A DNA stretch of 6,141 nucleotides, from positions 1-6,141 of the forward strand of contig JAEOSH010000077.1 of assembly GCA_016840465.1 (NCBI GenBank). Direction: 5' to 3'. The notes under the pieces were generated by a model. It did no database searches. It had not been told where the DNA came from and saw nothing but the letters and a program-made list of their open reading frames with translations. The position numbers and the translations under genes were made by a program. Below, piece after piece: positions 4,806 through 6,141 of this stretch; position 1 is the first letter of the stretch; every line of letters starts with the position of its first letter. The DNA is from Candidatus Baldrarchaeum yapensis. Lineage in GTDB: Archaea; Asgardarchaeota; Baldrarchaeia; Baldrarchaeales; Baldrarchaeaceae.

Positions 4806-4818
4806 TTTTATTATTTTC
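4806..4818 (-). promoter_or_regulatory. probable TATA box of the dehydrogenase-kinase-aldolase operon
   Basis: The minus strand reads AAAATAATAAAAG, an A/T tract with archaeal TATA character. A start about 25 nt on, near 4786, gives a ~12-nt leader before the TTG start. It lies directly after the last hairpin of RNA locus A, so the operon may be transcribed from here, from the locus A promoter, or both. Confidence 0.45.
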
Positions 4819-4820
4819 AT

Positions 4821-5018
4821 GTCACTCGGACGTTCCGTTCTGACTCTCCGCCACTTTTGTTGCAATTGACGCGTGTGTGGCGGAGAGCCTTCCCGTCTCG
4901 GGGTCCATCGACGGGCTTTCGCGGGGAGCGGTACTCCGCGCGTCCATCTGCCCCTCGCTCCGCCCTTTCGGGCTTCCCTTCCTCTCACCGTCCCTCCCAC
5001 ATCCCGGGCGGAGCCCGC
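4821..5018 (-). ncRNA. candidate structured RNA, locus A
   Basis: About 198 nt with far higher GC than the neighbouring genes and no convincing protein. In RNA sense the visible elements are GCTCCGCCC (5014-5006) pairing with GGGCGGAGC (4965-4957); a competing GCCC-GAAA-GGGC tetraloop hairpin that shares the GGGC; a GC-rich hairpin at 4920-4940; CCCGTC/GACGGG at 4892-4915; an 11-bp stem CTCTCCGCCAC/GTGGCGGAGAG (4844-4854 with 4877-4887) whose loop holds GCAACAAAA; and a last hairpin at 4821-4844. The TATA box at 5035-5045 is correctly spaced for a start near 5015. Locus B shares the start motif GYGGGCTCCG, the CTCCGCCAC hairpin and the upstream 40-bp box. It could be a free RNA or a leader of the dehydrogenase operon. 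I do not recognise it as RNase P, SRP RNA or tRNA. Confidence 0.6.
4835..4864. repeat. inverted repeat shared by RNA loci A and B (hairpin segment), copy A
   Basis: These 30 bases match the reverse complement of 5929-5958 at 28 of 30 positions. They cover one arm and the loop of the CTCCGCCAC hairpin and the following CAGAACGG. Conservation of both stem and loop between two otherwise diverged loci suggests this is the functional core of the RNA. Confidence 0.85.
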
Positions 5019-5034
5019 TTAACACAACAGAAGT

Positions 5035-5045
5035 CCTTTATAAGG
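5035..5045 (-). promoter_or_regulatory. TATA box of RNA locus A
   Basis: CCTTATAAAGG on the minus strand is a strong archaeal TATA-like sequence. A start point about 25 nt downstream falls at 5014-5018, exactly where the GC-rich structured segment opens with GCGGGCTCCG. The sequence is a palindrome, so plus-strand activity cannot be excluded. Confidence 0.6.
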
Positions 5046-5058
5046 GTTTTGAGGTTGT

Positions 5059-5098
5059 AAAGGTGCGTGAAGGCAGCAAATGCAACACTATACGTTTC
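5059..5098. repeat. 40-bp box upstream of RNA locus A (inverted copy of 5709-5748)
   Basis: This matches the reverse complement of 5709-5748 at 37 of 40 positions. Both copies sit just upstream of an RNA-locus TATA box in the same relative orientation and begin, in the RNA sense, with GAAACGTATAGTGTTGCATT. It could be a shared promoter or activator element, or the terminal sequence of a mobile element. Confidence 0.85.
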
Positions 5099-5121
5099 CT
5101 CCCCGAGTTTCTCGAGGCGGA

Positions 5122-5157
5122 AGGAAAGTTATTAAATTATGGGTAACATCCTTTCCC
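5122..5157 (+). promoter_or_regulatory. hairpin and TATA-like run before the radical SAM pseudogene
   Basis: TTATTAAATTA at 5129-5139 resembles a TATA box for the plus-strand radical SAM gene. It lies inside an imperfect hairpin whose arms are GGAAAGTTA and TAAC-ATC-CTTTCC. A short dyad, GGTCA-TG-TGACC at 5180-5191, follows between the expected start point and the coding region and could be an operator. Confidence 0.3.
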
Positions 5158-5250
5158 TGAAAAGTAATACATGATAGGCGGTCATGTGACCATTTGCCGA
5201 GAAACAAATCGCAAGGACACAACTCACATCGATGCGTAGGGGGCGTTAAG

Positions 5251-5717
5251 GTGGGCGTGATGAAGTGGTGGCGGTGCAGAAATCCATTTTTTAGAAAGGT
5301 AACGTATGCGGAACGGTCAGGCACGATGTACGTTTACAGTTTTGGTTGCAACTGGGCGTGCCTAGTGTGTACTTAATAGGATAAAGGATCCATGTGAGGA
5401 GGACGGTTGCAGGAGGATTGAGGAACGAAGGATGGAGTACTATCGGAGTGGACTGATAAAAACTGTGAGGTTTCTTGGCGGGGAGCCCCTAATAAATCCC
5501 CAGTTGCCGGCCATAGCAAAGTTTGCGGCCGATTTGGGGGGTAAGGGTGGAAATTGGGCATACAAACCTTTCCGTGATGCCTCCCGATGTCGCCGAAAGT
5601 GCTGTTGTTAGCATAAAGGCCATTGATGAGGCATACATAGGAAGTATACTGGAAACTTTTCCAATAGGAATGTGCTCAGGAACTTTGAGAAGTACCACCA
5701 GAGGGGCAGAAACGTAT
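5251..5717 (+). pseudogene. radical SAM protein, N-terminal two thirds (decayed)
   Basis: Front part of the gene whose tail lies at 118-368. The best start is GTG 5251 with GGGGG eight bases upstream (ATG 5260 is the alternative), giving VMKWWRCRNPFF. The radical SAM cluster motif is intact: GCNWACLVC is CxxxCxxC, which would bind the 4Fe-4S cluster that cleaves S-adenosylmethionine. After a frameshift near 5373-5378 the frame continues with DPCEEDGC and the SAM-binding motif VRFLGGEP. A second shift in the G-run near 5535-5550 leads to VMPPDVAES and SIKAIDEA, and a third near 5640-5665 leads to NVLRNFEKYHQRGRNV. At 5709-5717 it meets the locus-B insertion. At least three frameshifts plus the interruption make it non-functional. 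Related archaeal proteins are annotated as pyruvate-formate-lyase activases, usually without proof. Confidence 0.8.
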
Positions 5718-5748
5718 AGTGTTGCATTTGTTGCCCTCATGCACCTTT
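5709..5748. repeat. 40-bp box upstream of RNA locus B (inverted copy of 5059-5098)
   Basis: This is the plus-strand copy of the box described for locus A. Its first nine bases, GAAACGTAT, are also the last sensible codons of the radical SAM front part (R-N-V), so the box begins exactly at the coding break. Confidence 0.85.
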
Positions 5749-5786
5749 GATGCACCGTAAAGCAATGAGGTGTGCTGATGCCGTAA

Positions 5787-5797
5787 CTTTATATTTG
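5787..5797 (+). promoter_or_regulatory. TATA box of RNA locus B
   Basis: CTTTATATTTG on the plus strand is a good archaeal TATA sequence. A start about 25 nt later, near 5816, lies three bases before the GC-rich segment beginning GGTGGGCTCCG, the same arrangement as at locus A. Confidence 0.6.
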
Positions 5798-5928
5798 TTT
5801 TCTCCACAAAGAAGATTTGGTGGGCTCCGATTTCCGAGAGCCCGCGGGCGATGAAGGTCCGGTGACGTACCGGAGAACCCGCGGTGAGGGGGTCGGAGCG
5901 TCGCCGCGATGAAGGTCTCCGCCACGAA

Positions 5929-5958
5929 TGCAACAAAAGTGGCGGAGAACCAGAACGG
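5929..5958. repeat. inverted repeat shared by RNA loci A and B (hairpin segment), copy B
   Basis: Copy B of the segment described at 4835-4864 (28 of 30 identical after reverse complementing). It includes the loop AATGCAACAAAA, the GTGGCGGAGA arm and CCAGAACGG, where locus A has GTCAGAACGG. Confidence 0.85.
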
Positions 5959-6126
5959 TATGCGGCTTAAGACAAACACCGTTCTGGTTCCCAGGCTCGT
6001 GGTTGCCCGTGCGTTATCTTTTGGAAACTAAGGGTATTTTGGGAACCCGCACGGGCTTCCCCCTCGGCCGCTTCATCCCTCTCGGCGGCCCATCGGGGGC
6101 CACATCGACGAGCACCACGGAGCCCG

Positions 6127-6141
6127 CCTCACGTGCGTCCG
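6127..6141. repeat. terminal direct repeat, right copy
   Basis: Identical to bases 1-15. If the two copies are one overlap, the unit length is 6126 bp and RNA locus B runs on into the first ~75 bases of the window. Confidence 0.9.

Follow-up and report, generated by a model that had tools for sequence, protein, structure and literature searches.

What are the two homologous, divergently oriented RNA loci on this archaeal contig? The window analyzed here, a stretch of 6,141 nucleotides, is the entire contig C82 of a Candidatus Baldrarchaeum yapensis assembly (2.27 Mb; 100 contigs, many of which break within repeats of the type found at these loci). An initial annotation, made from the sequence alone, read locus A (minus strand) and locus B (plus strand) as a selected structured RNA family that could not be matched to a known archaeal RNA. 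We asked what these loci are, how they are distributed, and how they might work.

Layout of loci A and B and a neighboring repeat family

Most of the layout described in the initial annotation was recovered in our analysis. The upstream boxes are real and measure 46 bp, lying as inverted copies at 5059-5104 (minus, A) and 5703-5748 (plus, B) with 41 of 46 positions identical. TATA-like boxes are present at 5037-5044 (minus, A) and 5787-5794 (plus, B; CTTTATAT), approximately 25 to 30 nt upstream of the start motifs GCGGGCTCCG (A, 5018-5009) and GTGGGCTCCG (B, 5820-5829); in A, the distance to the RNA start is about 26 nt. Both loci also have the hairpin CTCCGCCAC with TGCAACAAAAGTGGCGGAGAryCAGAACGG. 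The near identity of this segment (28/30) belongs to the 3' half of the hairpin and not to its loop, as had been claimed, and the loops of A and B are of unequal length. The likeness between the loci is far above chance, with about 18 occurrences of the box genome-wide, 13 of which are accompanied by an RNA body.

The lengths given earlier had to be revised. Locus A had been estimated at about 198 nt, and its scaffold spans 184 nt (5018-4835), plus flank. For B, at least 310 nt had been proposed, and family homology stops at 5958 (CAGAACGG). Reading B as an RNA of 305 nt with GGGCTCCG/CGGAGCCC (5822/6118) as its closing pair was also ruled out, because a different, independent repeat begins at 5999 and that pair thus joins two unrelated elements. 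Both folds are more stable than those of shuffled sequences (z = -2.9 for A and z = -4.2 for B, the folded B stretch taking in part of this second repeat).

No Rfam family matches the RNA of A or B, a check that the initial annotation had proposed. Searches of the window at gathering and relaxed thresholds gave only miRNA-type and virus cis-element noise, and neither the window RNA nor 14 related loci matched RAGATH-18 or any other family for the RNA. Naming the RNA from Rfam was therefore impossible. A tRNA/tmRNA search of A and B and a search of viral contigs were also negative.

The repeat at 5999-6141 (minus) belongs not to B but to a second family, of which it represents the 3' half. The same stretch is found on C8, C96, C88, C55, C74, C58, and C56, in several cases on contigs without B. 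The 5' half of the family, with left end and TATA box, lies at the opposite contig end (1-144, minus). Full copies (e.g., L025:5617-5887) have the left end GACTATTCAC, a TATA box, and an RNA-like body ending in the hairpin CCCGTGCG..CGCACGGG and CAACCAC, followed by variable flanks. Judging from this organization, the second family is probably a stand-alone guide-RNA (omegaRNA) element of a different transposon. The contig ends (1-15 and 6127-6141) share an identical 15 bp. A circular contig was ruled out, and these ends are an assembly break, because several other contigs are likewise broken at this point of the second repeat.

Gene-less copies of an IS607 element

Thirteen copies in the genome, A included, consist of the box, a TATA box, and an RNA body that ends in CAGAACGG or is cut by a contig end. 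Other box copies either lack an RNA body directly after the box (C76, C89b, and C96) or have divergent or deleted bodies (C75 and C1). The flanks of the 13 or more copies are mutually unrelated, and this delimits element A as a 266-bp nonautonomous IS607-type element (4835-5100, minus) with its left end at 5100, next to the target GGGG (5101-5104), and its right end at 4835. The same boundaries restore an open reading frame on C89, where a copy interrupts an ATPase gene: the joined flanks form a 563-amino-acid ORF in which PF01637 (ATPase_2) spans residues 28 to 277, across the junction at residue 126.

IS607 elements are bounded by GG (PMC10711439). Here, GG was present at all 15 left flanks, and the right end is ...CGG. 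The longer motif GGGG adjoins the left end at 11 of the 15 insertion sites, compared to a background of 6.1% (P = 5e-11), and the flanks of the copies, as candidate guides, are unique. Since GGGG is enriched at insertion sites and resembles the published TAMs of IS607 TnpBs (AGGAG and GAGGG), it is likely the TAM.

The A-type left-end box also precedes tnpA in a full element on C96, which is ordered left end, IS607 tnpA, tnpB, and right end (...GCGGAGAGTCAGAACGG). The ends of A and B are the ends of this element. Its tnpA encodes a serine recombinase (NF033518 transpos_IS607, 237 bits; cutoff, 110). Its tnpB matches NF040570 guided_TnpB (161.9 bits; cutoff, 100) and Pfam PF07282, and the protein has RuvC-type motifs with D183, E268, and D346/D348. 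In the small copies, the RNA body matches the C-terminal part of C96 TnpB, starting at residue ~322 or later and reaching residue ~412. These copies therefore contain the left end, a promoter, and the 3' end of tnpB together with the right end.

In the studied systems, TnpB guide RNAs lie at the tnpB 3' end (PMC11061315 and PMC10711439). The RNA of A derives from the tnpB 3' end plus the right end. Because the C96 tnpB 3' end is homologous to the A RNA, the assignment of A as a stand-alone gene for a TnpB omegaRNA (reRNA), with a TATA box of its own, is well supported by homology, with the DNA after ...AACGG as its predicted guide. The 184-nt scaffold (4835-5018, minus) is ordered S1 (5018 to c. 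4959), S2, S3, and a terminal hairpin, ending in ...AGTCAGAACGG; covariance model R1, which has A among its seeds, matches 4835-4949 with 124.5 bits. The predicted guide, AACGTCCGAGTGACATGAAA (4815-4834, minus), is formed by the first 20 nt past the right end. Frame 2 of the A RNA is open for 60 codons and cannot encode a nuclease because the RuvC part is missing. In C96 tnpB, the 5' stem and the core are separated by 78 nt encoding the zinc finger and the last RuvC motif; the stand-alone copies are without this segment and have kept both stem 1 and stem 2.

Element B (5707-5958, plus; 252 bp) has the same ends as A, namely, the left-end box with target GGGG (5703-5706) and the right end CAGAACGG, and a different scaffold in between. 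This scaffold (5820-5958, plus), delimited from repeat D4 and its fold, runs from a 5' hairpin (GGGCTC/GAGCCC) through two GCGATGAAGGTC modules (5848 and 5906) to a terminal hairpin (5917-5947), without S3. Model R1 matches B with 44.8 bits (E = 5e-13), mainly via the terminal hairpin, and only the terminal portion is common to B and the A-type RNA. No relative of the B body was found by BLAST in the phylum (227 genomes). In Alkanophaga, two weak loci (L207 and L209), each with a GATGAAGG hairpin, may be related to it. B is regarded as the same kind of RNA as A, with a divergent scaffold; its predicted guide is TATGCGGCTTAAGACAAACA (5959-5978, plus), the first 20 nt past the right end.

Some further observations concern the surroundings of these elements. 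A second right-end-like sequence, GGGAACCAGAACGG (5978-5991, minus), lies tail to tail with the right end of B at a distance of 20 bp, and the two form a 13-bp perfect inverted repeat. Between A and B, a decayed radical-SAM-like frame with a CNWACLVC motif (5266-5760, plus) is apparently disrupted by stops and by B. Elsewhere in the genome, the tnpB of a second IS607 tnpA-tnpB unit (L031; C55:21000-24002) is interrupted, in an intron- or intein-like manner, by an ORF that by eye resembles a LAGLIDADG homing endonuclease; the guide-RNA scaffold at the 3' end of this unit is a different one.

Covariation and distribution across archaea

The stems of the A-type RNA covary across archaea. The three helices of the core, evaluated on 18 sequences, are 94% paired and have 31 double-change cells, compared to 12.2 in shuffles and 1 to 7 when slid. 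A fourth, 5' stem, whose arms were paired by hand, has 27 double changes, compared to 7.7 in shuffles and 3 to 7 when slid, and it covaries in stand-alone copies (GCAGTCCC/GGGACTGC and GCTCCGCCC/GGGCGGAGC). Conserved secondary structure was found for the A type only. The A1 alignment was seeded by the terminal-hairpin pattern, and conservation of that hairpin is thus partly selected; a later model search recovered other terminal hairpins, still ending in AGAACGG or close to it. The idea of a selected structured RNA family is thereby upheld, with the correction that A and B are mobile-element copies rather than two host RNA genes. Despite lacking an Rfam match, the RNA is identifiable in kind, as an IS607-family TnpB omegaRNA/reRNA.

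A pattern scan of named genomes found tnpB-linked relatives in Methanoxibalbensis and two Thermoproteota, and stand-alone relatives in Methanocaldococcus, Thermoplasmata, Alkanophaga, Archaeoglobaceae, Geoarchaeota, and another archaeal metagenome-assembled genome (MAG). Bacterial matches to the 20-nt pattern (Kitasatospora, Sporosarcina, and others) were rejected as chance, being without the rest of the scaffold. Within the phylum, the core covariance model had matches in 19 of 227 genomes (12 of 61 genera). Many of these matches are 3' ends of tnpB genes. Among matches with 600 bp or more of sequence upstream, approximately 27 are preceded by less than 100 nt of TnpB similarity, including about a dozen of the 14 matches in one genome (G077); the TnpB panel may miss divergent TnpBs, and the weakest core-model matches may be false. 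TnpB homologues were found in all 13 carrier genomes tested, 11 of them above the cutoff.

Some genomes carry heavy loads of TnpB-type elements, namely, a Thermoproteota MAG (L079; 27 model matches in 1.4 Mb) and an Alkanophaga genome (L072; 13 model matches and 43 TnpB matches). Stand-alone copies in both include the left end, TATA box, and scaffold. The TATA box of A is conserved in further copies of this genome and in stand-alone elements from other archaea, and its position ~25 nt before the 5' stem recurs in several lineages. In the genus Methanocaldococcus, 6 of 14 genomes had matches, and one single-contig genome has several promoter-bearing stand-alone copies analogous to A. The A-type RNA is present in Methanocaldococcus sp. 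SG1 and in related genomes, and the genus is culturable. In a Thermoplasmata MAG, the right end of an RNA copy (L062:2771-2863, minus) lies 4 nt short of a tRNA gene (2692-2766, minus), and its predicted guide would equal the 5' end of the tRNA.

Proposed working, alternatives, and known systems

Our preferred explanation, to which we assign a probability of roughly 75%, is that A and B are gene-less IS607 elements that carry a promoter-driven TnpB guide scaffold and use TnpB in trans for retention. It rests on the element structure, the homology to the tnpB 3' end, mobility, the insertion motif, covariation, and distribution. An IS607 TnpA would move these miniature elements in trans and insert them at GG, preferably at GGGG. 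A transcript driven by the TATA box and running through the right end would comprise the scaffold and, as the guide, flanking DNA, and TnpB made elsewhere (from the full C96 element) would bind this scaffold in trans. After excision, the rejoined site (...GGGG plus flank) would match the guide beside the TAM and be cut, and the element would be copied back or kept. The occupied site would be spared because ...ACGG rather than GGGG precedes the flank. The guide role and the cutting are extrapolated from experiments on other IS607 TnpBs (PMC11061315 and PMC10711439). Transcription, the use of TnpB in trans, and the working of the altered scaffold of B are inferred. As this retention model expects, the sole genome match to the first 16 nt of the A guide (allowing up to 2 mismatches) is the flank of A itself.

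The most serious alternative is that the copies are passive internal-deletion derivatives, in which the tnpB 3' end is kept only as the right end for TnpA and the RNA is inert. Such deletion derivatives are common, and the PATEs of Haloquadratum arose from IS605-type elements by core deletion (PMC3119063). The small copies in this genome are also very similar (mostly 88 to 96% alike), which could reflect a recent burst without guide function. However, the retained part far exceeds a transposon end and includes the covarying 5' stem, the TATA box keeps its distance from that stem in several lineages, and the stems persist in stand-alone copies even though the 78-nt zinc-finger segment does not. 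We therefore consider passive derivatives improbable, if still worth bearing in mind.

Host-gene repression by TldR-type systems is the model for another alternative, in which exapted stand-alone RNAs direct TnpB, or a relative without nuclease activity, to host genes and thereby repress them. The copies do have their own promoters, their guides are fixed by position, and some lie beside or within genes. The one guide tested, that of A, matches only its own locus, though, the C96 TnpB retains its RuvC residues, and the flanks differ among copies and are unconserved, making this scenario very unlikely. That A and B are two noncoding RNA genes of the host, with no link to transposons and from an unknown archaeal family, as originally read, fits the promoters, the covariation, and the lack of an Rfam match but is contradicted by the C96 element, with which they share left and right ends, and by the 13 or more dispersed copies and the homology to the tnpB 3' end, and we give it hardly any credence.

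Descriptions of TnpB guide RNAs usually place them in cis, as products cut from the tnpB transcript. Read as gene-less elements with guide scaffolds, the A-type loci make the scaffold a separate gene that has its own promoter, is mobile, and is present in multiple copies. With such genes at 13 or more places, one nuclease could therefore carry a bank of independent guides, which is formally near the step from omegaRNA to CRISPR array. A broader picture, for which we see even odds, is that archaeal IS607 TnpBs are served by distributed, promoter-driven stand-alone guide genes (more than 13 in some genomes, in several phyla); these would be second-layer parasites borrowing transposase and nuclease for retention, and the B type would be a further class with a divergent TnpB. 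Whether gene-less elements persist via TnpB in trans becomes testable, and the stand-alone copies mark the part of the scaffold that is needed.

Guide-RNA loci away from the nuclease gene are known from stand-alone IscB omegaRNAs/HEARO, which differ in belonging to the IscB family and in having another scaffold, and there are hints of similar stand-alone guide-RNA elements for IscB and IS605. In the literature covered, which included few subscription journals, we found no description of promoter-bearing stand-alone IS607 guide-RNA elements. Three reports already document guide RNAs of TnpB, reRNAs of IS607, and archaeal elements with a deleted core (PMC11061315, PMC10711439, and PMC3119063). 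The reRNA of ISFba1, with its RAGATH-18 motif (Ren et al. 2024, PMC11061315), is similar in having an IS607 TnpB partner, a G-rich TAM, and a structured RNA at the right end with the flank as guide; in that study, 64% of RAGATH-18 RNAs adjoin IS607 tnpB. By comparison, the A-type RNA is archaeal, has no RAGATH-18/Rfam match, overlaps the tnpB 3' end with its scaffold, and has its own promoter in stand-alone copies. ISXfa1 (Yoon et al. 2023, PMC10711439) is likewise a GG-bounded IS607 element in which a fixed right-flanking nucleotide is part of the scaffold, whereas its reRNA is bacterial and encoded in cis with tnpB. The Haloquadratum PATEs are also archaeal, nonautonomous, core-deleted derivatives of TnpB-bearing transposons, but they are of the IS605 type with near-terminal palindromes, and no guide RNA is described in the passages covered of their report (PMC3119063). 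The IS200/IS605 omegaRNAs of Halobacterium (PMC12558985) are archaeal TnpB guide RNAs that have been shown to be expressed; unlike the A-type RNA, they are of the IS200/IS605 type and tied to transposase loci.
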